From Glycomyces artemisiae (GTDB taxonomy: Bacteria; Actinomycetota; Actinomycetes; Mycobacteriales; Micromonosporaceae): DNA of 64,000 nt. The notes beneath the pieces are model-generated. The model was not told the DNA's origin, searched no databases, and saw only the letters and a program-made list of their open reading frames with translations. Position numbers and translations under genes: made by a program. Positions 8,452-57,066 of the stretch are shown piece after piece (positions within the stretch are counted from its first letter, which is position 1; each line of letters opens with the position of its first letter). The DNA lies in the NCBI RefSeq assembly GCF_003002955.1, contig NZ_PVTJ01000006.1:62001-126000 (forward strand), in the 5' to 3' direction.

Positions 8452-10722
8452 ATGGATCAGCCCGTAGCCGCATCGGAACACCTTCCGCCGCAAGCCCCTC
8501 CGCCTCCCGCGGACCGACCCGGCCGCCGCGCCGAGGTCACCGCCAAGTCCGTCCAGATCGTCCTGCTGTGCCTCGGCGGGCTCCTGCTCACCGCCGGGGT
8601 CATCGTCTTCACCGCCGTCGCCTGGCGCCAGCTCGGCGACGGCGGACGGCTCACCATCCTCGCCGGGACCACCGGCCTGCTCATGGCCGTCCCGTTCGCG
8701 CTCACCAGGTCCCGCCTGTGGGCGACCGCCGAGACCCTCGCGGCCACCGCCACGCTCGCGCTGTGGTGCTCCGCACTCGCCGGGTACTACCTGTACCTGC
8801 CGAGCGGCACCGGCCTCACCGCCGTGTCCGTCGCCCGCTGGACCGCGGCCGTCCTCGTCGCCGCGACCCTCTACCGGATCGCCGCCCGCGTCGCCGCCCC
8901 CGCCTGGGCGCTGCTCCCCCTCGCCGCGACCGGCGCCGCGTTCGCCGCCTTCGGCGACGCCCTCGAAGCCGCACTCCACATGGGCGCCATCGGGCTCCTC
9001 CTCGCCGGCGCCGCCTGGACCGTGAAAGCCGCCCCGACCCGCCACGCGGGCGCCGACCAGTAGTCCGCGCGCGTGCTCCTCGCCGCAGGGATCACCACGG
9101 TCTTCCTCGCAGGCATGCGGGCCGCCTTCGGCCTCGACGCCGCGATCCTGCCGGTGGCGGCGGCAACCGGCTGCCTCCTCGCCGCCGCGTGCATGCTCGC
9201 AACCGCCCACGCCCGCTTCGCAGGAGCCTCCACCGCGGCCGTCGCAGTCCTCGGCTCGGCAGCCGGCGCGCTCACCATCGCCTCGTGGGTCCTCGCACTC
9301 CGTTCCCTGGAGCCGCTGGTCGCGCTCCCCGCATTCGGCCTCTCGGCGGTCGCGGTCATCCTGGCCGCCTCCTGGACCGACCCGAACGGCTACGAGCGCC
9401 TGCCGCTCGGTGCGGCCGCCAGTGCGGTCACCGCTTCGCTCGCGGTGCTCGGCGCGGTGATCACCGATGCGTACGAGCTGACGGCGTTCTTCGCCGCCGC
9501 GGTGCTCTCGCTCGCCGTCTCCTTCATCTTCCCCGCAGCGCTCGCAGACGCCCTCCGCAAGGGCGCCATGGTCATCGGCGCCTCGGTGTTGGCCTGGTGC
9601 ACGTTCGTGAGCGCCACGGCGCTGCCGGTCGCCTACGGGGCCGAGCCGAACCCGCTGGTGCAGTGGGAGGTTCCGGCGATCGCGGTCGGGAGCGCGGTCG
9701 GCGCCTTCCTCGTCGCCAAGGGCTGGCGGCGCGACTTCCTGGCGCTGGCCGCGGCCACGGCCGCCATGAGCGCAGGGGCGCTGGCCGGGAGGTCGGCCGC
9801 ATCCCTGGCCGCGGTCGCGGCGCTGGCGGTGTTCGTGGCGTTCACCTCGCCCGGCACGGGCCGCAGAGTCCTGGGGTGGACGGCGGCGTACCCGGCGGTC
9901 ACCGCGGCGGCGCTGGCGTGGGCTTACCGTCCAGCGACGAACGACCTCGATCCCGGGCCGGCCCTGGCGGTCGCGGTCGGGGTCGTCTCGGTGCCGCTCG
10001 CGGCGACCTGGTTCGTTCGCCGCGGCGGCGACAGCAGCGGCCACCGCGGCCGCGCGGATTTGGTGTGGGGCCGGGTCGGCGCGCACTCCATGATCGGGGT
10101 GTACCTGGTGTGGCTCACCGGGATCGCGCTGGCAGACGGGATCGGCCTGGACACGCCATTGGGGTTCACGGCCTACGCGGGCGCACTGGCGGCGGCCGCG
10201 ATCGCGAACCCGGCGAAGCGGCTCGGGCATGTGCTCGGCTCGTGCGCCTCGATGGTCGTTGCCGCGCTCATGTTCGCCGCGTACGGCGGGGCGACCGCCG
10301 TCGAGTGGTACACCGTGCCGCCTGCCGTCGTGCTGGTCGGCTTGGGACTGTGGCTGCTGCGGCGGGACGCGGCGACGAGCTCGTGGCTCGCGCTGGGCCC
10401 GGCGCTCGCGGTGGGCTTCGGCCCGTCGCTGGTCATGGCGCTCGGGCCAGAGGGCGACCCTTGGCGCCGGATCACGGTCGGCGCGGCCGCCGTGGCGGTG
10501 CTGATGGCGGGCGCCTGGCGGCGCTGGCAGGCGCCGCTGGTCCTCGGGGCGGTGGTGTTGACGGCCTTGGCGGTCAACGAGATCGCCCTGGTGTGGAGCG
10601 CGGTCCCCAAGTGGATCCCGCTCTCGATCGGCGGCGCGGTCCTCATCGCCGCGGGCGCGACCTTGGAGCAGCGGCGCCGCGACCTCGCCCGGATCGGCCG
10701 GTCGCTCAAGGCCATGCGCTGA
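8452..10722 (+). pseudogene. SCO7613-family multi-spanning membrane protein interrupted by an in-frame amber codon
   Basis: One continuous frame of about 756 codons is broken by TAG at 9061-9063. Upstream: MDQPVAASEH, a Pro-rich segment and four or five hydrophobic helices (VQIVLLCLGGLLLTAGVIVF; LALWCSALAGYYLYLP). Downstream, possibly restarting at GTG 9073, about 14 more helices ending in RRRDLARIGRSLKAMR. The intact paralogue at 11846-14437 aligns through the stop without a gap: DLWASRLL there against DQ-stop-SARVLL here, so a Trp codon (TGG) is replaced by TAG. This copy lacks the N-terminal zinc ribbon. Options are a pseudogene, a sequencing error, a split gene, or readthrough. No function is known for the family. 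Confidence 0.7.
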
Positions 10723-46242: not shown

Positions 46243-47604
46243 TTGGCCGTCCAGTCCCCTCCAGCCCCGACCCAGGCGCCGCCTGCCGCGGGACCGCCCG
46301 CGCCCGGCGCGGCGCCCGGGCGGTGGACCGACCGGGTCGCGGCCGCGCTGCGGCAGACGCCCGGCCAGCTGCGGGGCGTCCTCGCGGTCCTCGCGGTCCT
46401 CATCCTCGGCGCCGGGGTCACCGGCATGACCTCGATCCTCGCGAAGTCCGCGGTCATCGAGGAGACCACCAGCCAGTCCGGGCGCCTCTCGGTGGCCGCG
46501 CTCCAGCTGTACCAGGCGCTCTCGCAGGCCGACGCGACGGCGGCGTCCTCGTACCTGACGGCGGGCACGCCCTCGGAGTCGATGAACGAGGCGTACCGGA
46601 CCGCGCTGCGCGACGCCACGGTCGCGCTCGCGACCGCCGCGGGCGAGGTCGAGCATGCTGAGGACGTCGAGCTCGTGGCCCAGCTCAACGCCCGCCTCCC
46701 CGTGTACACGGGCCTGGTCGAGTCGGCGCGCACGTTCAACCGCCTCGGCGAGCCCGTCGGCGCGACGTACCAGGAGCAGGCCTCGACGCTCATGCGCCAG
46801 GAGATGCTCCCGTCGGCGCACACGCTCCAGGAGAACGCGCTCGCGCAGCTCACCGAGTCGCGCGACGGCGCCGCGGCGTTCCCGTGGGCCGCCGCCGCGC
46901 TCGTGATCGCCGCGCTCGGCACGCTCGTGTGGGCGCAGCTGTGGCTCACCCGCAAGACCAACCGCACGTTCAACCTCGGGCTCGTGGGCGCCACGGTCCT
47001 GCTCGTGGTGTTCGCCGGCTGGCTGGCGATGGCGTCGCTGGCGTCGGCGAGCCACACGTCCCGGTCCCACGAGGAGGGCTCGCGGCCGCTCGAACTGCTC
47101 GCGCAGGCCGAGATCGCGGCCCAGCAGGCCCGCGCCGAGGAGTCGCTGCTGCTCATCGCCCGCGGCGAGGCCCCCGAGGCGGCCGACCGGTACGCCGAGC
47201 ACATCGAGGAGCTGACCTCCGACGGCGGCCTGCTCGACCAGCTCGACGACGCGTTCGCCGACGACCCCGACCTCGCGGCGAAGATCGGCGACGCCCGCGA
47301 CGCGGCCACCGCGTGGAGCAACGGCCACGGCGAAGTCGTCAAGCTCGCCCAGGAGGGCAGCTACACCGAGGCCGTGGCGCTCGCCGTCGGCGACGACGAG
47401 GCGAGCCTCCAGACCTCCTTCAACGGCCTCAACGCGGCCCTGACCGAGGCCACCGAGACCAGTGCCGACCGGTTCGTGGACGCGACCCTCGACGCGCAGC
47501 GGTCGCTCCAGGGCGCCGCCGCGGGCCTCGCGGCCCTGTCCCTGGCAGCGCTCATCTGCGCGGCCGTCGGCATCCAAGTCCGAGTGGCGGAGTACTACGC
47601 ATGA
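46243..47604 (+). CDS. glnX: GlnX-type membrane protein of the GlnX-GlnH-PknG signalling system
   Basis: 453 residues, TTG start behind GAGG. A Pro-rich N-terminus, a helix (about 45-65), an extracytoplasmic helical domain (residues 66-205), two helices (about 210-266), a second extracytoplasmic helical domain and a last helix (about 425-447). In mycobacteria GlnX couples the periplasmic amino-acid sensor GlnH to the kinase PknG. Identification rests on topology and on the gene order glnX-glnH-pknG; sequence conservation in this family is low. TGA overlaps the glnH ATG (ATGA). Confidence 0.8.
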   Translation: MAVQSPPAPTQAPPAAGPPAPGAAPGRWTDRVAAALRQTPGQLRGVLAVLAVLILGAGVTGMTSILAKSAVIEETTSQSGRLSVAALQLYQALSQADATAASSYLTAGTPSESMNEAYRTALRDATVALATAAGEVEHAEDVELVAQLNARLPVYTGLVESARTFNRLGEPVGATYQEQASTLMRQEMLPSAHTLQENALAQLTESRDGAAAFPWAAAALVIAALGTLVWAQLWLTRKTNRTFNLGLVGATVLLVVFAGWLAMASLASASHTSRSHEEGSRPLELLAQAEIAAQQARAEESLLLIARGEAPEAADRYAEHIEELTSDGGLLDQLDDAFADDPDLAAKIGDARDAATAWSNGHGEVVKLAQEGSYTEAVALAVGDDEASLQTSFNGLNAALTEATETSADRFVDATLDAQRSLQGAAAGLAALSLAALICAAVGIQVRVAEYYA

Positions 47605-48563
47605 ACCGAACCGGAAGAACCGCCGCCGCGTTCGCCGCGGCCGCGTGCCTCGCCCTCGCCGCGTGCACCGGGCCCGCGAGCATGGAGCCGCCCGTGGTCG
47701 ACGTGCCGACGCCGCTGCCCGACGGGGTCAACTTCTCGCCCGACGCGAGCCCCGCCGACGCCGACACCTCCTGCGACCCGCTCTCCTCCTACTCCCCCGG
47801 CTCGGTCACCGCCGAGCAGGCGCGCGCGCTCCTGGAGGACCCCGAGCAGATCAGCATCGGCATCAGCCAGTCCACGAACCTCATGGGCTACCGCGACCCC
47901 GAGACGAACGAGCTCGCCGGGTTCGACATCGACATCGCGACCGCGATGGTCCAGGCCGTCATGGGCGACGCGACGAAGGTCCGCTGGGTGCCGATGAACT
48001 CCGCCGACCGCGAGCAGGCCCTCGCCGACGGCCGCGTGGACATGGTCGTGCGGACCATGTCCATCACCTGCGAGCGCTGGGAGAACGTCGAGTTCTCGAC
48101 CGAGTACTACCACGCGGGCCAGCGCCTCCTCGTCGCGAAGGACTCCGGGATCGCCGGCCTCGCCGAGATGACCGCCGACCAGCTGGTGTGCACCGGTGCG
48201 AGCTCCACCTCGGTGGGGAACATCGCGGCGGTGAACCCGGAGGTCCAGCCGGTCACGGTCCCGGACTTCAACGACTGCCTGGTGCTGCTCCAGCAGGGCA
48301 CCGTCGACGGCGTCGCCATCGACGACACGATCCTCGCGGGGATGGCCGTGCAGGACCCGACGCTCCAGGTCGTGGGGGACGCGTTCTCGGAGGAGCACTA
48401 CGGGATCGCGTTCCAGAAGGGCGACACCGACCTCGCGCGGTTCGTCAACGGCGCGCTCGCGGCGATGATCGCGGACGGGCGCTGGCAGGACTCGTACGAC
48501 GAGTGGCTGGCCGGGCCGCTCGCGACGGGACCGGCCGCGCTGACCACGCAGTACCGGGATTGA
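47601..48563 (+). CDS. glnH: GlnH-type amino-acid-binding lipoprotein
   Basis: 320 residues. Signal peptide with lipobox LAAC (Cys22), then an SBP_bac_3 fold: ISIGISQSTNLMGYRDPETNELAGFDIDIATAM, MVVRTMSITCERWENVEFSTEYYHAG (Arg/Thr ligand region) and GVAIDDTILAGMA. The mycobacterial homologue binds Asp/Glu and signals instead of transporting; no ABC permease or ATPase is encoded here, which fits signalling. Starts within the glnX stop; 9 bp before pknG. Confidence 0.88.
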   Translation: MNRTGRTAAAFAAAACLALAACTGPASMEPPVVDVPTPLPDGVNFSPDASPADADTSCDPLSSYSPGSVTAEQARALLEDPEQISIGISQSTNLMGYRDPETNELAGFDIDIATAMVQAVMGDATKVRWVPMNSADREQALADGRVDMVVRTMSITCERWENVEFSTEYYHAGQRLLVAKDSGIAGLAEMTADQLVCTGASSTSVGNIAAVNPEVQPVTVPDFNDCLVLLQQGTVDGVAIDDTILAGMAVQDPTLQVVGDAFSEEHYGIAFQKGDTDLARFVNGALAAMIADGRWQDSYDEWLAGPLATGPAALTTQYRD

Positions 48564-48572
48564 GGGGACCGC

Positions 48573-51020
48573 ATGAGCGACCAGCAGCCGCCGCCCGAGC
48601 ACACCCAGCGGTACATGGCGGGCCAGTACCAGCAGCCGCAGACCGAGGAGAGCGACACGCTCGCGGTCCGCAGGCGCATGTCGACGCCGCCGGCGGTGCC
48701 GCCGCAGCCGGGCTTCGCGCCCGCGCCTCCCGGGCCGCCCGGGACGGGCTCGCCGCCCCCGAACGCGGCGCTCCCGACCGGGACGGCGGCGCTGTCGCCG
48801 CCGAGCATGACGGCGCCCGTCGGGCCGCCGCAGGCCCATGCGGCACAAGCGCAGACAGCCCAGTCGCAGCAGGTGGTGCCCGCGAACGCGGTCGCCTCGC
48901 CGCCTCCGGCGCCGTACCGGGCCCCGGCCGCACCGCTGCCGCAGCCGATCACCGGGCCGGTGACGCGGTCGACGACGTCGAGCACGCGCCAGCGCGGGGG
49001 CCTGTCGGACATGCCGCCGGTGCCGCCGCGCGACCCCGCCGAGGCGGTCATGGCGACCCCGCAGGTGCCCGAGCACAAGCGGTTCTGCTCCTCGTGCGGG
49101 AAGCCCGTGGGGCGCCCGCAGGCGGGCCGCGCGGGCCGCGTGGAGGGCTTCTGCCCGTACTGCCGGGCGCGGTACTGGTTCACCCCGGCGCTGTCGCCCG
49201 GGGACCTCCTGTCGGACCGGTACGAGGTGCTGGGCGCGATCGCGCACGGCGGGCTCGGCTGGATCTACCTGGCGAACGACCGGAACTTCGCCGACGACCT
49301 GACGCAGCGGTGGGTCGTCATCAAGGGCCTCATCAACACCTCGGACGAGGACGCGATCGAGGCGGCGATCAACGAGCGGCGGTTCCTGGTCGGGATCGAC
49401 CACCCGAACGTGGTGGACATCCACGACTTCGTGACCGCGGCGGACCCGCGGTCGGGGCAGCTCCAGTCGTACATCGTGATGGAGTACATCGCGGGGAAGT
49501 CCCTGCGCGACATCAGGGACGCGACGGACGACGAGGGCGAGCGCAAGCCCCTGCCGCTGGAGCAGGTGCTGACGTACACCGCGGAGCTGCTGCCCGCGTT
49601 CAGCTACCTGCACGACCGGGGCCTGCTGTTCTGCGACTTCAAGCCCGACAACGTGATCCACGTGGAGACGTGGCTGAAGCTCATCGACCTCGGGGCCGTG
49701 CGGCACGTCGAGGACATGGAGTCGGCGATCTACGGGACGCCCGGGTACTCGGTGCCGAACGACGAGATCCTCTCGGTGGGCCCGTCGGTGACCTCGGACC
49801 TGTACACGATCGGCCGGTCGATGGCCGTGCTGGCCTTGGACTTCAAGGGCTTCACGACCACGTACCGGGACCACCTGCCCCCGGCGTCGGAGGCCCCGCA
49901 GTTCGCGGAGTACGGGTCGTTCCACCGGCTGCTGCTGCGCGCCACGCACATCGAGCCGCGCTCGCGGTTCCAGGACGCGGACGACATGCGCACGCAGGTG
50001 CGCGGGGTGCTCCACGAGGTGCAGTCGGTGCAGCGCGGGGAGCCGCGCTCGGAGCCGTCGACGCTGTTCTCCGGCGAGCAGTCGGTGTTCGGGGAGCCGG
50101 ACGTGGAGTACGACGTCCACAAGATCGGCGACCCGTTCGAGGTGGCGCACGCGCTGCCGACGCCGATGGTGGACCTCGCGGACCCGATGGCGGCGTTCCT
50201 GGCGACGCAGCAGGCCACGGACGTGAACGGCATCCTCCAGGAGCTGAACTCGGCGCCGCAGCAGAGCCCGGAGGTGCAGCTGCGGCGGGTGCGCACGCTC
50301 GTGAACGCGGGCGAGCTGCACCAGGCCGCGGCGGTGCTCGACCAGTTCGCGCAGCGCGAGGGGAACACGTGGCAGGTGACGTGGCTGCGCGGGATCATCT
50401 CGCTGCTGGCCGCGGACTTCGCGACCGCGGCGGCGCATTTCGACGCGGTCTACTCGCACCTGCCCGGCGAGCTGTCGCCGCGCCTGGCGCTGGCGGCGTG
50501 CGCGGAGCTCGCGGGCCGCGCGGACCTGGCGCTGCCGCACTACACGCGGATCTGGGCGTGCGACCACCGGTTCGTGTCGGCCGCCTACGGGCGGGCGCGC
50601 CTGCTCGACCTCGAAGGCAATTCGACGGACGCGATCACGACGCTGCACCAGGTCCCGAAGACCTCGGCGCAGTACGGGATCGCGCAGACCGCGGCGATCC
50701 AGACGGCGCTGCACTCGCGCACCGCGCCGCCGTCGCTGCTGGACCTGCACCACATGGCCGGGCGGCTGGACGAGCTGAAGCTCGAACCGCGGCGCCGGCA
50801 CCTGGTGTCCACGCGGATCCTGCACCTGGCGCTGGACACGGTGCAGCGCACCGGTCCGGCCGCGGAGCCGCCGGTCTTCGGGGCGCGCCCCGAGGAGCGG
50901 GAGCTGCGCCTGGCGCTGGAGCGGGCCTACCGGGACCTGGCCCACGCCTGCACCCGCAGGGAGGACCAGGTGTACTACTTCGACCTGGCGAACCGCCACC
51001 GCCCCCGCACGATGCTGTAG
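48573..51020 (+). CDS. pknG: Soluble Ser/Thr protein kinase PknG with rubredoxin and TPR domains
   Basis: 815 residues. An N-terminal disordered Pro/Gln/Thr region (contains TEESDTLAVRRR, a likely autophosphorylation cluster); rubredoxin-like Cys4 (FCSSCGKPVG and GFCPYCR, about 170-197); kinase domain about 210-470 with AHGGLGWIYLA P-loop, VVIKGL Lys, YIVMEYIAGKSLRDI hinge, catalytic CDFKPDNV in place of HRDLKPEN and DLGAVR for DFG; C-terminal TPR domain (about 560-815). These are the specific deviations of PknG. Target in mycobacteria is GarA, controlling the TCA cycle and glutamate use. Confidence 0.93.
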   Translation: MSDQQPPPEHTQRYMAGQYQQPQTEESDTLAVRRRMSTPPAVPPQPGFAPAPPGPPGTGSPPPNAALPTGTAALSPPSMTAPVGPPQAHAAQAQTAQSQQVVPANAVASPPPAPYRAPAAPLPQPITGPVTRSTTSSTRQRGGLSDMPPVPPRDPAEAVMATPQVPEHKRFCSSCGKPVGRPQAGRAGRVEGFCPYCRARYWFTPALSPGDLLSDRYEVLGAIAHGGLGWIYLANDRNFADDLTQRWVVIKGLINTSDEDAIEAAINERRFLVGIDHPNVVDIHDFVTAADPRSGQLQSYIVMEYIAGKSLRDIRDATDDEGERKPLPLEQVLTYTAELLPAFSYLHDRGLLFCDFKPDNVIHVETWLKLIDLGAVRHVEDMESAIYGTPGYSVPNDEILSVGPSVTSDLYTIGRSMAVLALDFKGFTTTYRDHLPPASEAPQFAEYGSFHRLLLRATHIEPRSRFQDADDMRTQVRGVLHEVQSVQRGEPRSEPSTLFSGEQSVFGEPDVEYDVHKIGDPFEVAHALPTPMVDLADPMAAFLATQQATDVNGILQELNSAPQQSPEVQLRRVRTLVNAGELHQAAAVLDQFAQREGNTWQVTWLRGIISLLAADFATAAAHFDAVYSHLPGELSPRLALAACAELAGRADLALPHYTRIWACDHRFVSAAYGRARLLDLEGNSTDAITTLHQVPKTSAQYGIAQTAAIQTALHSRTAPPSLLDLHHMAGRLDELKLEPRRRHLVSTRILHLALDTVQRTGPAAEPPVFGARPEERELRLALERAYRDLAHACTRREDQVYYFDLANRHRPRTML

Positions 51021-51032
51021 CGAAGGAGCCCT

Positions 51033-52100
51033 ATGCAGCCCTCACCGACCATGGGCGCCGCGAAGCGTTGCACCGCTTGCGGTCTCCCGGCAGACCTCGG
51101 CCGCTTCTGCGAGGACTGCGGCGGCGACCTGGAGGAGTTCGAGGTCCCCGCCGAGGCCCTCCCGTGGCGCTCGTCGGCGGCGGTCGAGGAGAACCCGGAC
51201 CATCCGGGCGGCTCCGACGACCACCTGACGTTCGAGATGCCGGGGATCGGCGCGGCGACGGACGTCGGGAAGCGCCACCACTACAACCAGGACTCGATCG
51301 CGATCGCGCTGGCCGAGGACGGCCGGAAGATCGCGGTGGTGTGCGACGGCGTCTCGGGCGCCTCCGACTCCGAGCGGGCTTCACTCGCAGGGGTGGAAGC
51401 GGCTGTGACGGAGATCCGCTCGGCGCTCGCCGAGGGCCTGTCGGCGGAGGACGCGTCGCGGCGCGGGGTGGGCGCGGCCCACTCGGCGGTGGCCGCGGTC
51501 GGCAAGCAGTACCCGAACTCGCCGCCGTCGTCGACGTACGTGTCGGCGGTGGTCGAGGGGAACCAGGCGGTGCTGTGCTGGGTCGGGGACTCGCGGGCGT
51601 ACTGGGCCGGCGAGAAGGAGGCGCGGTGCCTGACGGTGGACGACACGATCCAGGCGCGGCTGGAGTACCAGGGCGTGGACCCGTCCGATGAAAGGTACAA
51701 GAATCCGTACGCGAAAGCCCTGCTGGCGTGGCTCGGCGCGGACGCGCCGACCCTGAACCCGAACCTCCTCCGCGTGGATCTGGGCGGAGGGCATGTCGTA
51801 GTGTGCAGCGATGGTCTGTCGCGTTATTTCAATGACGATCACGACCTTCTGCCACTGCCGGACGGCAGTGTTGGCGAGAAGGCGGTAGCGTTGACACGAC
51901 AAGCGCTCGCTAACGGCGGGCATGACAACATCAGTGTCGCGGTGGTGGAACTCGAATCCCCCGGTTCGGTCCAGGTCGACGAACGCGCGCGCGAGCGCGC
52001 TGACCAGGGCTCGCCGAACGGGGAGAACGGGGCCGCCCCGCTGCTCGGTGTCGTCAGCGAGGCCGAGTACACCCAAATGCTTGGAGGGGGACGACCTTGA
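51033..52100 (+). CDS. PP2C-type Ser/Thr protein phosphatase with N-terminal zinc ribbon
   Basis: 355 residues. N-terminal Cys4 ribbon ([20 protein letters not shown]), then a PPM domain: [20 protein letters not shown] (metal-binding Asp), [20 protein letters not shown] and [11 protein letters not shown]: metal-coordinating Asp residues are present. Ends with an acidic tail. The operon position (12 bp after pknG, overlapping the FHA gene by 4 nt, TTGA) implies it reverses phosphorylation by PknG, an inference. Confidence 0.88.
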
Positions 52101-53281
52101 CCTACCAGCCGACCTACGGCGGTGCCCCACAGCCGGGCGGGTACCAGTGCGCGTGCGGGGCGTTCCCGCAGGCACAGTTCTGCGAGCAGTGCGGGACCCC
52201 GAACCCGGCGTGGCAGCAAGGCCAGCCTCCGCAGTCCCCTGCCGCGTTCGGGCAGGGCTACCCGTCGAACGACCCGTACGGTCAGCCCGACCCTTACGGA
52301 CAGCAGCAGCCGGGGGGCTACGGGCAGGACCCCTACGGGCAGCCGCAGCAGCAGGACCCTTACGGCCAGCAGCCTGGCGGCTACGGCCAGGACCCCTACG
52401 GGCAGCCGTCGCAGCCGCAGGGCGGCGGGTACGGCCAGCAGGACCCGTACGGGCAGCAGCAGCCCGGCGGCTACGGGCAGGACCCGTACGGCCAGCCGCA
52501 GCAGCAGGACCCGTATGGGCAGCAGCCCGGCGGGTACGGGCAGGACCCCTACGGGCAGCCGCAGCAGCAGGACCCTTACGGCCAGCAGCCCGGCGGCTAC
52601 GGCCAGGACCCGTACGGTCAGCCGTCGCAGCAGGACCCGTACGGCCAGCCCGCGCAGGACCCGTACGGGCAGCAGCCCGGCGGGTACGGGCAGGACCCGT
52701 ACGCGCAGCAGTCGTACGCGCCGACCTCGGCGCCTCCCGGGCCGCCTCCGGGCGTCCCGGCCGCGCCGTTCGGCGCCCCGACCTCCGCGCCGCCCTCGAC
52801 GGGCACCGGCGGGTTCTCGATGCCGGACGCGCAGCCCGCGGACCTCGCGTCGAACTACGCGCCCGCCGGCCAGGCGGCCACCCGCTGGGGCGTCGCCGTC
52901 ACCGCGGACCAGGGGTACTTCAACAAGGTCGCGGCCTCCGACGGGGCCTCGCAGCTCCAGTACCCGTCGTTCGCGAAGCCGCGCCGCTTCCCGCTCGACA
53001 AGAACGAGCTGGGCATCGGCCGCTACAGCGCCAAGCGGGGCATCACCCCGGACATCGACCTGTCGGGCGACGTCGCGGACCCGGGCGTGAGCGCCCAGCA
53101 CGCGCGGCTGTACGCCAAGCCCGACGGCTCGTGGACGATCATGGACGTCGGCTCCTCGAACGGCACGTTCCTCAACGGCTCCGACGAGCCGCTGGCGCCG
53201 AACGTGGAGTTCCCGGTCGGGGACGGCACCTACATCAACATCGGTGCGTGGACGCGCCTGACGATCCACTACGAAGGCTAA
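52097..53281 (+). CDS. FHA-domain protein with N-terminal zinc ribbon and Gln/Pro/Gly/Tyr repeats
   Basis: 394 residues from TTG 52097. Cys4 ribbon ([16 protein letters not shown], residues 16-31), a disordered region of about 150 residues built from QDPYGQ and PGGYGQ repeats, an Ala/Pro linker, then a C-terminal FHA domain: [35 protein letters not shown] (Gly-Arg and Ser/His of the phosphothreonine pocket) and [16 protein letters not shown]. It may play the GarA-like part but lacks the ETTS phosphoacceptor motif of mycobacterial GarA. Terminator follows. Confidence 0.85.
52255..52720 (+). repeat. Tandem coding repeats in the FHA protein (unit about 63 bp)
   Basis: Five to six repeats, unit about 21 residues ([21 protein letters not shown]), some with indels ([14 protein letters not shown]). 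The DNA repeats closely enough to expand or contract by slippage. Low-complexity; not a CRISPR array. Confidence 0.8.
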
Positions 53282-53295
53282 GCGAGACAGCAGGA

Positions 53296-53323
53296 AAGGC
53301 CGGGTCCGTTCGGACCCGGCCTT
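53296..53323. terminator. Terminator of the glnX-FHA operon
   Basis: AAGGCCGGGTCCG / CGGACCCGGCCTT, 13-bp arms with a 2-nt centre (real loop 4 nt), 15 nt after the FHA stop and followed by CTGCTTC; the facing hydrolase gene ends at 53345, so it may serve both. Confidence 0.85.
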
Positions 53324-53344
53324 CTGCTTCCCCACCCCTGCTTC

Positions 53345-54875: not shown

Positions 54876-56900
54876 CTAGGCCGGCGCGTACACCGCCGCC
54901 GTGAACTCCACCTTCATCCAGGCCGAGGAGTCCTCCGGCACCACCGATGTGACGTCGGCGACCACGATCTGGAGCTTGTCGGTGTACATGCACAGGCTCA
55001 TGCCCTCGGTCAGCGGCGCCGAGCCCGGGTCCCACGGGTCGATCGTCCAGTACAGCTCCGGGTACGACCCGTCGATCTCCGCCCAGCAGTCCTCCGGGGT
55101 CACCGAGGCGTCGAAGAACGTCCCGGAGATCCCCGTGGGCGTGTACAGGTAGCTGGTCAGGCCCGTGTTCGTCGAGTAGTCGATGTCGCACGGGTTCAGG
55201 ACCAGGTCCGTGTAGGACGCCGCCGCGTCGTCGGTGAGGTACTCGACGTAGATCGAGCCGGTCGTGGTGATGTCGTCGAAGTCGACCATCGCGTACTCGC
55301 AGGTCGAGTTCTCGTCGAACGTCGTCGTCAGCGTGATCGGGTAGTCGGAGTAGACCTCCGTCCACCCGCCCGAGGCGGCCGTGGTCTCCTCGTCGGGCTC
55401 GGTCGTCTCGGGGTCGTCGGGGTCCGAGGTCTCCAGGTCGTCAGGGTCGTTCTGCGAGATCGCCCCGGTCGGGTCGTCGTCGCCCCCCGGGTCGCCCCCG
55501 TCGCCGTTGAGGAACCACACCAGGCCCCCGATGAGCGCGATCGCGAGGATCGCCGCGATCACCGTGACGCCCACGGCCGTCGCGTTCGACTTCTGCGGCT
55601 GCCCGAACGGCGGCGGCGCCCCGTACGCCGGCGGCTGGCCCGGGTACTGCGGCGGCCCGAACTGCCCCGCCTGCTGCGGAGCGGTGTACTGCGGGGCCGT
55701 CTGCTGCGGCGCCGTGTACTGCATCGTCGGCTGCCCGGCCGGGTACTGGCCAGGCGAGACCTGCCCGGGCGCATAGCCCGGCGCCGGGGACTGCGGGGGC
55801 GCCGAGTAGGACCCCGGCTGCGCGTACGGCACCGAGGTCACCGGCGAGGCGGGCGGCGCGGACATCGGGAACGCCGTGCTCGGCGCCGGGGGCTCGCCGC
55901 CGGGCACCGCGCCCGGGTACGGCGAGTCGAACACCGACGTCGGCGCGTTCGGCGTCGGCGGCGGGCCCGTCGGGGCGGCGCTGTCGACGAGCGTCGAGGG
56001 CACGCCCGAGTCCCCCAGGAGGCTCGACAGCTCCCAGCGCTGGCGCTCCGCGAGTGCGTTCACCGCGTCCGGCCACGGGCGCGTAGAGGGCGCCACAGGG
56101 CCGATGAGCGACATCAGCTCCGCGGGGGTGGGGCGCGCGCCGGGGAGGCGGATGAGGCACCGCTCGGCGATCGCGCGCACGCGCGGCGACAGCGCCGACA
56201 GGTCCGGCTGCGACCGGACCACGTTGTTCAGCGTCTCCAGCGTCGAGGCGCCCGTGAACGGGCTCGTGCCGGTCGCGGCGAGCACCAGGACCGAGCCGAG
56301 CGAGAACACGTCCGACGCGGCCGAGACCGTCCCGGACTCGGCCTGCTCGGGCGACATGAACCCGGGCGTGCCGATGACGCCACCGGTCTTCGTCAGGTTC
56401 GTGTCGGTGATCCCGTCGGCGGCGCGCGCGATCCCGAAGTCGATCACCCGCGGTCCGTCCGCGGCCAGGATCACGTTGGCGGGCTTCAGGTCCCGGTGGA
56501 CCATCCCGGCCTTGTGGATCGCGGCCAGCGCCGACGCGAGCCCAGCCGCGAGGCGCAGCACGGCCGCCTCCGGCAGCGGCCCGGACGACTCCACGACGTC
56601 CTTCAGGTTGGGGCCCAGCAGGAACTCGGAGGCGAGCCACGGGACCTGGTCGTCGGGCCCGGCGTCGAGCACCGAGGCCGTGTACGCGCCCGCGACCTGC
56701 TTCGAGGCGTCCACTTCGCGGCGGAACCTGGCCCGGAACTCCTCATCCTGGATGAGCGCGGCCGCGATGAGCTTGACGGCCACGGGGCGGCCGTCGGGGG
56801 CACTGGCGAGGAACACGCGGCCCATGGCGCCGCGGCCGAGTTCGGCGATGGTCCGGTAGGGACCGATCCGTTCGGGATCGCCGGGAGCCAAGGGCTGCAT
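54876..56900 (-). CDS. Membrane-anchored Ser/Thr protein kinase
   Basis: 674 residues from ATG 56900 (GGAGG 5 nt upstream). Kinase domain about 12-270: ELGRGAMGRVFLASAPDGRPVAVKLI, MVHRDLKPANVILAADGPRVIDFGIARA, GTPGFMSPEQAES. A long Pro/Gln/Gly/Tyr juxtamembrane linker (APQQTAPQYTAPQQAGQFG) precedes one helix (VTVIAAILAIALIGGLVWFLN, about 445-465), then an Asp/Thr-rich hinge and an extracellular domain of about 160 residues with four Cys. No PASTA repeats, so it is not PknB. Confidence 0.9.
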   Translation of the reverse strand: MQPLAPGDPERIGPYRTIAELGRGAMGRVFLASAPDGRPVAVKLIAAALIQDEEFRARFRREVDASKQVAGAYTASVLDAGPDDQVPWLASEFLLGPNLKDVVESSGPLPEAAVLRLAAGLASALAAIHKAGMVHRDLKPANVILAADGPRVIDFGIARAADGITDTNLTKTGGVIGTPGFMSPEQAESGTVSAASDVFSLGSVLVLAATGTSPFTGASTLETLNNVVRSQPDLSALSPRVRAIAERCLIRLPGARPTPAELMSLIGPVAPSTRPWPDAVNALAERQRWELSSLLGDSGVPSTLVDSAAPTGPPPTPNAPTSVFDSPYPGAVPGGEPPAPSTAFPMSAPPASPVTSVPYAQPGSYSAPPQSPAPGYAPGQVSPGQYPAGQPTMQYTAPQQTAPQYTAPQQAGQFGPPQYPGQPPAYGAPPPFGQPQKSNATAVGVTVIAAILAIALIGGLVWFLNGDGGDPGGDDDPTGAISQNDPDDLETSDPDDPETTEPDEETTAASGGWTEVYSDYPITLTTTFDENSTCEYAMVDFDDITTTGSIYVEYLTDDAAASYTDLVLNPCDIDYSTNTGLTSYLYTPTGISGTFFDASVTPEDCWAEIDGSYPELYWTIDPWDPGSAPLTEGMSLCMYTDKLQIVVADVTSVVPEDSSAWMKVEFTAAVYAPA

Positions 56901-57066
56901 TGATGCCTCCGGGAAGCGAGGGGCGGGCGGTAACCACCATTCTATTGCCGTTGTGCCAGCGTGCGCTGGACGCGAACGCCTGGGCCTATGGGACACAAGC
57001 GGATCAGACCACGCGAAAGGGGCCGCTCCGCGGGTGCGGAACGACCCCTCTCACGTCAATCGATGC

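Follow-up and report, generated by a model that had tools for sequence, protein, structure and literature searches.

In the mycobacterial and corynebacterial systems closest to the locus described here, a sensor formed by GlnH and GlnX acts on the kinase PknG, the genes stand in the order glnX-glnH-pknG, and GarA/OdhI is encoded elsewhere (PMC6069109, PMC9769921, PMC8546545). An operon of Glycomyces artemisiae, within a stretch of 64,000 nucleotides ('the window'; NCBI RefSeq assembly GCF_003002955.1, contig NZ_PVTJ01000006.1, positions 62,001 to 126,000 of the forward strand), begins with this trio, arranged alike; its PknG has the rubredoxin and TPR make-up seen in mycobacteria, and the pocket of its GlnH is largely kept. 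In contrast to the described systems, however, the window operon adds a PP2C phosphatase and an FHA protein with a putative zinc ribbon, its GlnH carries Phe in place of Trp232, and the tail of the genome's own GarA reads DVTATMNL and not ETTS. The best overall explanation of this five-gene operon, glnX-glnH-pknG-PP2C-FHA, which we consider somewhat more likely than not, is that it represents the Glycomycetaceae version of an actinobacterial PknG cluster comprising GlnX, GlnH, a protein that we call X, PknG, PP2C, a von Willebrand A (vWA) protein and ribbon-FHA.

Three further systems invite comparison. The TerY-P triad brings together a TerY-like vWA protein, a PP2C phosphatase and a Ser/Thr kinase to which a zinc ribbon is fused (PMC11090510), and the clusters that we find in relatives of the window likewise combine kinase, PP2C, vWA and zinc ribbons. 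They differ from the triad as described there, however, in that their kinase is a PknG with TPR domain, in that ribbons are found on PP2C, on FHA and, in 27 of 52 clusters, at the start of PknG, and in that they also include an FHA reader and a sensor of GlnX and GlnH; the window operon itself has no vWA gene beside kinase and PP2C and is not a TerY-P triad. In the archaeal ArnA-ArnB system, a zinc-finger FHA protein (ArnA) works with a vWA protein (ArnB) in a network that includes kinases and a phosphatase, and the C-terminus of ArnB, which holds most of its phosphosites, is crucial for binding ArnA (PMC6509490). This likeness is one of description; the accessible part of that paper names neither PknG nor GlnX nor GlnH, and the window operon lacks the vWA protein. 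Finally, actinobacterial genes linked to GAP1-N2 GTPases have a ribbon kinase, PP2C and a stand-alone vWA protein as neighbours, as in the relatives' clusters, but no PknG and no solute-binding sensor is named in the part of PMC7159879 at hand. No description of a PknG-PP2C-vWA-FHA cluster was found in the open-licence literature, as far as it is accessible, on PknG with PP2C, FHA, von Willebrand or TerY, PMC1262709 and PMC7159879 among them.

The five-gene operon

The five open reading frames sit where a preliminary description of the window, made from the sequence alone, had placed them, and the junctions claimed there are borne out by two overlaps of 4 nt and gaps of 9 and 12 bp. All features lie on the forward strand:

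46243..47604, forward: glnX, transmembrane sensor, TTG start (NF058618, 371.6 bits, cut-off 250)
47601..48563, forward: glnH, solute-binding lipoprotein (SBP_bac_3, 105.8 bits, over cut-off), ATGA overlap with glnX
48573..51020, forward: pknG (PF16919 86.3, PF00069 77.4 and PF16918 236.5 bits, all over cut-off), 9-bp gap after glnH
48603..48989, forward: Thr islands of the PknG tail, HTQRY (T11), SDTLAVRRR (T29) and TRSTTSST (131-138), at which the kinase may phosphorylate itself and FHA may dock
48987-49193, 49224-49838 and 50055-51011, forward: rubredoxin, kinase and TPR domains of PknG, preceded by the N-terminal tail
51033..52100, forward: PP2C phosphatase (PF13672 (PP2C_2), 53.4 bits, over cut-off), 12-bp gap after pknG
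51069-51119 and 51267-51956, forward: N-terminal Cys4 ribbon and catalytic part of PP2C
52097..53281, forward: ribbon-FHA protein (PF00498, 48.1 bits, over cut-off), TTGA overlap with PP2C
52148-52192 and 53018-53245, forward: CxC...CxxC ribbon and FHA domain of the FHA protein, with the repeat linker between them
52276..52709, forward: QDPYGQ/GGYG repeats in the Tyr/Gln-rich linker of the FHA protein (Tandem Repeats Finder)
53285..53335, forward: hairpin, likely terminator (-32.8 kcal/mol, z -5.34, 0/200 shuffles as good)

The hairpin after the FHA gene agrees with the single terminator proposed earlier; its T run is weak, and it is absent from the output of a scan for terminators with T runs.

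A search of other actinomycetes for the five-gene order, as the preliminary description had proposed, finds it. In the protein searches, matches denote the best 120 of 840 and the best 120 of 7998. PP2C led to 20 loci (19 named Glycomyces and one metagenome-assembled genome, MAG), and the order is unbroken in 15 of them, the other five being cut by contig ends; together with the window and two loci from related genera, probably Natronoglycomyces albus and Haloglycomyces albus, this gives 18 unbroken loci. Three named Glycomyces species have a PP2C that shares 97% identity with the window's, and the DNA of the PP2C-FHA junction is nearly identical across the 12 printed loci (11 Glycomyces and the one MAG). 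Ratios of nonsynonymous to synonymous substitution rates, computed for the aligned domains against six Glycomyces, are 0.13-0.26 for PknG, 0.08-0.18 for PP2C and 0.14-0.24 for FHA, and all three proteins are under purifying selection.

The wider pknG cluster

A search with PknG_TPR gave matches in 110 of 296 genomes of the class, in 108 of 200 genomes of the family as coded, and in 31 of 246 genomes of the phylum, 18 of these being over the cut-off. From the matching genomes of the class and family sets 100 pknG neighbourhoods were chosen and compared by means of cluster gene profiles built from window, second-cluster (see below) and PP2C seeds. Genes for PknG, PP2C, vWA and FHA, with ribbons on PP2C and FHA, stand in a row with glnX-glnH at one end in 52 of the 100, a share that is no frequency since the neighbourhoods were chosen for spread. 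The order is glnX-glnH-pknG-PP2C-vWA-FHA in 40 and pknG-PP2C-vWA-FHA-glnX-glnH in 12; a further eight are glnX-glnH-pknG (six with family code f2, one f3, one f17), two show the five-gene order devoid of vWA, and the other 38 either belong to second paralogues or are partial or cut. Taken together, the 52 loci span seven family codes, and an eighth code has the block on a cut contig. Our guess is that f2 stands for Mycobacteriaceae (three-gene operon, GarA tail ETTSVFR) and f18 for a Streptomyces-like family, while f1 holds Glycomyces and, by probable assignment, Stackebrandtia, Rhizomonospora, Phytohabitans and Plantactinospora.

Two genes of the cluster are missing from the window operon. 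The vWA protein carries an invariant Ser and an invariant Thr near its C-terminus in 50/50 tails, which were read for 50 of the 52 loci. An apparent vWA-FHA fusion, P0240, was set aside, as its middle looks, by eye, to be out of frame before the usual FHA start. In all 11 vWA-bearing loci inspected, gene X, whose open frame encodes 371-473 residues, separates glnH from pknG. A search with one X sequence matched 11 of 37 genomes, namely nine of the 11 vWA-bearing ones and two Glycomyces near their second cluster, which indicates that the family is divergent. As an example, X at L118:11817-12956 (-) belongs to this conserved type of about 370-470 residues.

The cluster is found beyond the class as well. 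In genome G654, the sole strong PknG_TPR match there (231.9 bits; 246 phylum genomes), the genes for PknG, ribbon-PP2C, vWA and ribbon-FHA are consecutive, with X upstream of the first and glnX-glnH adjoining on the other strand.

Direction of change

A tree of PknG loci was built from 97 of 122, leaving out those that were short or cut and Glycomyces nearly identical to one another; for the rooted tree a further 16 rows, mostly second paralogues and long branches, were omitted and G654 was added as outgroup. The vWA-less loci form one clade (support 100 in the 97-row tree), which sits inside a clade of support 99 together with three vWA-bearing loci, one of them probably from Stackebrandtia albiflava. 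When rooted on G654, the f2 clade with the three-gene operon lies inside a node of support 99 shared with vWA-bearing lineages, and the three-gene locus of f3 lies apart from the f2 clade.

The missing genes were also sought elsewhere in the genomes. In 11 of 12 f2 genomes the cluster-type vWA has no match, the twelfth giving one of 20.6 bits, and X matches in 0/12. Among 11 Glycomyces genomes the cluster-type vWA is present in seven, where it stands beside a second pknG, and in four it is not found, nor is it in two genera related to Glycomyces; the window's own genome, with neither vWA nor X in the operon, has a cluster-type vWA beside its second pknG only. With vWA and X not found in f2 genomes, apart from the 20.6-bit vWA match, and vWA in Glycomyces either not found or confined to the second pknG, the f2 and window forms are both explained more simply by loss than by relocation, though the tree has a single-genome root and modest deep support. 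The window operon, although not a full PknG-PP2C-vWA-FHA-X cluster, appears as a reduced descendant placed by the tree beside and among its bearers.

The preliminary description took the mycobacterial operon to end at glnX-glnH-pknG, which agrees with the six f2 loci, none having PP2C or FHA beside pknG. It is then less obvious that the window operon should be seen as an addition to that form. With the wider cluster occurring throughout the class and in a single genome outside it, and the f2 form nested inside, it is probably not one, and the textbook mycobacterial operon looks like a stripped version of a larger actinobacterial cluster. The window operon suggests a separate and partial reduction, in which vWA and X would have been lost while the linker of the FHA protein gained Tyr/Gln-rich repeats. 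In 16 of the 18 vWA-less loci for which linkers were read, the linker has 218-314 residues with 17-29 Tyr (medians 234.5 residues and 24 Tyr; window, 24 Tyr in 230 residues); for the vWA-bearing loci, of which 51 of 52 were read, the medians are 70 residues and 1 Tyr. The vWA-less loci being one clade, this growth counts as one event, and in five vWA-bearing f18 loci the linker is 112 to 384 residues long and contains 5 to 9 Tyr.

Predicted proteins and zinc ribbons

GlnX of the window scores 213.7 bits against the mycobacterial equivalog NF041460, below the cut-off of 780; with the model of the broader subfamily NF058618 it lies over the cut-off. For GlnH the nearest solved structure by sequence is that of Mycobacterium tuberculosis GlnH (6h2t, E 8.3e-57), in which Asp is contacted by Arg147, Thr162, Ser164, Arg169, Trp232 and Asp250, according to the accessible part of PMC6069109. 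Five of these six residues (R, T, S, R, D) are kept and the position of Trp232 is Phe, so that Asp/Glu is the likely, and only likely, ligand. The nearest solved structure for PknG is that from M. tuberculosis (2pzi, E 1.1e-133), the alignment starting at the rubredoxin. PP2C aligns with PstP (1txo, E 2.6e-16), including the motifs DG, GDSR, SDGLS and DN, which we take to be metal-site motifs; its family score is over the cut-off, and a phosphatase is predicted.

An AlphaFold2 model of residues 255-394 of the FHA protein (predicted local distance difference test, pLDDT, 89.1) has the FHA fold. Foldseek places a chain of the Corynebacterium glutamicum 2-oxoglutarate dehydrogenase complex first by E-value and a Bdellovibrio FHA first by Z; with many matches tied, the model tells fold and not function. 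Residues G54, R55, S78, H81, N101 and G102 of the model, presumably the phosphate site, are invariant in 24 aligned rows. The protein is not GarA, scoring 22 bits against a cut-off of 200 with the OdhI model, and it lacks the GarA phosphoacceptor ETTS, as had been stated before.

It had also been proposed that this reader binds a Thr cluster at the N-terminus of PknG. Such Thr islands are present and kept in the 12 printed Glycomyces tails: HTQRY and SDTLAVRRR in 12/12 (one reads HTMRY), and TRSTTSST in every tail printed far enough to show the position. The docking itself we retain as a candidate function. A more specific idea, namely that the role of the vWA phosphosite passed to the PknG tail, was pursued by means of a pattern of the T29 type, T-[LVIMQ]-x-[VIL]-[RKF]-[RKP], written after the sequences had been seen; it occurs in the PknG tail of 17/18 vWA-less and 3 cut Glycomyces loci and of L040, L084 and L086, and in 0/52 vWA-bearing loci. 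A score matrix of the vWA tails applied to PknG tails gave median best scores of 7.43 for vWA-less versus -1.73 for vWA-bearing loci (each order), reaching 13.55 in two congeners; the site in the window PknG scores 1.37, a value equalled or exceeded at 366 of the 5151 Thr sites in frames of the window. The idea failed the shuffle control in the window (see Discussion), the vWA-less loci are one clade, and it is not used as evidence.

Cysteines of the putative ribbons are C172/C175/C194/C197 in PknG, C13/C16/C26/C29 in PP2C and C18/C20/C29/C32 in FHA. The claim that each protein starts with a CxxC...CxxC module therefore holds for PP2C, is to be amended for FHA (CxC...CxxC) and fails for PknG, where the module is the internal rubredoxin and does not stand at the start. 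Ribbon-like motifs occur in 18/18 PP2C and 16/18 FHA frames of the five-gene type (the two misses are cut frames) and in 64 of 5871 control frames (first 180 residues; the stretch scanned was longer for FHA). Of the 52 vWA-bearing loci, all have one on PP2C, 48 have one on FHA and 27 have one on PknG before the rubredoxin, and the vWA tail has one in 0/51; in second-paralogue clusters devoid of PP2C and FHA, the vWA tail has one in 12/18. Far from being a peculiarity of the window operon, ribbons are also present in the relatives' clusters and on GarA orthologues of several families, and they mark the PknG pathway in general; that they mediate docking is a fair guess, and nothing observed here points to redox control.

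Two side observations concern these motifs. A simple rubredoxin pattern is absent from 17 of the 52 vWA-bearing PknG and from many second-paralogue PknG (rows L048-L139), where pattern or spacing may mislead; within Actinobacteria, only Corynebacterium is described as lacking the PknG rubredoxin module in PMC8546545, which also names Chloroflexi and Cyanobacteria as holders of PknG. GarA orthologues of f12, f16, f17, f24 and f38 have at least one N-terminal CxxC, and two in f12 (L172, L173, L174, L176, L178, L188, L189), which was not seen in the tails of f1, f2 and f3 as printed.

Second cluster and neighbouring genes

The same genome contains a second cluster on the minus strand (L008:6585-13354; G000:C8:314584-321353) with pknG2, vWA, ribbon-FHA, glnX2 and glnH2, devoid of PP2C, and its order is the same in five further Glycomyces loci. 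GlnH2 has Ala at the position of the pocket Thr of GlnH, which makes another ligand possible. The reading frame of its vWA gene shifts near the end (L008, about 9390-9660), leaving the tail split over two frames, and P0240 looks similar; sequencing error, decay and frameshifting are candidate causes.

The window operon is flanked on the opposite strand by a cytidine-deaminase-like gene and a rhodanese gene at its 5' side, and by genes for an alpha/beta hydrolase and a Ser/Thr kinase (54876-56996 (-), Pfam Pkinase 128.7 bits) at its 3' side.

Discussion

Gene content and gene order support the earlier view of one kinase-phosphatase-FHA unit under a GlnH/GlnX sensor. They do not support the further claim of a self-contained circuit: vWA and X of the relatives are missing from the operon, and since garA lies elsewhere in the genome, the FHA protein as sole output is not supported.

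Several points weigh against our reading of the operon as the reduced descendant of a larger cluster. Apart from the neighbourhoods having been chosen for spread, the X search missed the vWA-bearing genomes G128 and G190, yet G128 has the open frame in that place, so that calls of absence are weaker for X than for vWA. The tree is rooted on a single genome, whose branch is long and whose placement transfer might explain; one intervening branch has support 81, several lines and the f2 clade form an open fork, and the deepest forks of the tree devoid of outgroup have support 47. As to mechanism, single changes of ArnB phosphosites left motility unaffected (PMC6509490), the vWA-tail matrix does not single out the PknG-tail site of the window (1986 of 5000 shuffles are as good), and GarA matches are found in 72/72 genomes, so that the older output may predominate in this organism as well.

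Among the alternatives, the last-named point leads to the strongest, which we regard as a serious possibility though short of an even chance: PknG would phosphorylate GarA and thereby free 2-oxoglutarate dehydrogenase, PP2C would reset GarA, and the FHA protein would only scaffold or tether. The garA gene of the window's genome, located beside a gcvH-like gene, encodes a tail in which Thr is kept (DVTATMNL), whereas ETTS is absent from it. Tails were sought in 49 garA loci, of which five gave no reading by pattern; among the 44 read, ETTS is found in 5/5 of f2 and in the single one of f12, and it is absent from 31/31 of f1, 3/3 of f17 and the single tails of f3, f16, f24 and f38, which carry ERTS, TST, TAT or TRT-like stretches. 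Given this distribution, the missing ETTS was rejected as a sign of rewiring in Glycomyces. Moreover, GarA is also present in G082 and G175, family genomes with no PF16918 match, which argues that it is independent of PknG.

Alternatively, the three-gene operon might be ancestral, with the PP2C-vWA-FHA-X block having joined pknG later, once or several times. The weak unrooted forks would allow this, one f3 locus likewise has glnX-glnH-pknG only, and kinase-PP2C-vWA triads are known in other settings (PMC11090510), so that the block could travel. We nevertheless consider it rather unlikely, since a genome from outside the class has the block, with X, next to pknG, since eight family codes contain it, and since the outgroup-rooted tree nests the f2 clade and keeps the f3 locus apart from it. 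Least probable, by a clear step, is that the Tyr/Gln-rich linker took over a multivalent scaffolding role by self-association when vWA was lost: it is indeed far longer and richer in Tyr in vWA-less loci, but these represent one event, the five vWA-bearing f18 loci also have long linkers, and repeats drift easily.

Returning to the reduced descendant of a larger cluster, we infer the following interactions and phosphorylations. GlnH would sense a periplasmic amino acid, probably Asp or Glu, and GlnX would relay its state to the TPR domain of PknG, as published work on orthologues suggests. PknG would then autophosphorylate Thr in its own disordered tail and phosphorylate a partner, the co-transcribed PP2C would remove these marks, and the FHA protein would read phosphothreonine. 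For the majority of relatives this partner is probably vWA; by the parallel with the C-terminus of ArnB, we propose that the vWA tail with the invariant Ser and Thr is where PknG would write and FHA would read. Glycomyces, Natronoglycomyces and Haloglycomyces appear to have lost vWA and X. With vWA lost, the FHA protein would have to read something else; the PknG tail is the simplest candidate, and the islands at T11, T29 and 131-138 make it the likeliest partner in the window. The f2 genomes, taken as Mycobacteriaceae, may have lost the PP2C-vWA-FHA arm and X and kept the GarA output.

It is tempting to go further, although the following version as a whole is doubtful: PknG, familiar in mycobacteria as a metabolic kinase from a three-gene operon, might by origin be the kinase arm of a sensor-gated switch resembling TerY-P and ArnA-ArnB, in which phosphothreonine on the vWA tail is written by PknG, erased by PP2C and read by ribbon-FHA, the ribbons holding the parts together. 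Mycobacteriaceae would then have dropped this arm and kept only GarA, and Glycomycetaceae would have retained PknG, PP2C and ribbon-FHA, with the PknG tail and a Tyr/Gln-rich FHA linker that associates with itself standing in for vWA.

The literature on PknG, in the parts available (PMC6069109, PMC8546545, PMC9769921), concerns three-gene operons with GarA/OdhI as FHA partner, and no study of a phosphatase, a vWA protein or an FHA reader as partners of PknG was found in the accessible open-licence literature. Should the larger cluster prove ancestral, a dedicated phosphatase, a vWA protein and an FHA reader would act alongside many PknG kinases, and the role of PknG in the cell may exceed the control of 2-oxoglutarate. 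The five-gene form of the window, devoid of vWA and X, would offer a natural minimal writer-eraser-reader system.

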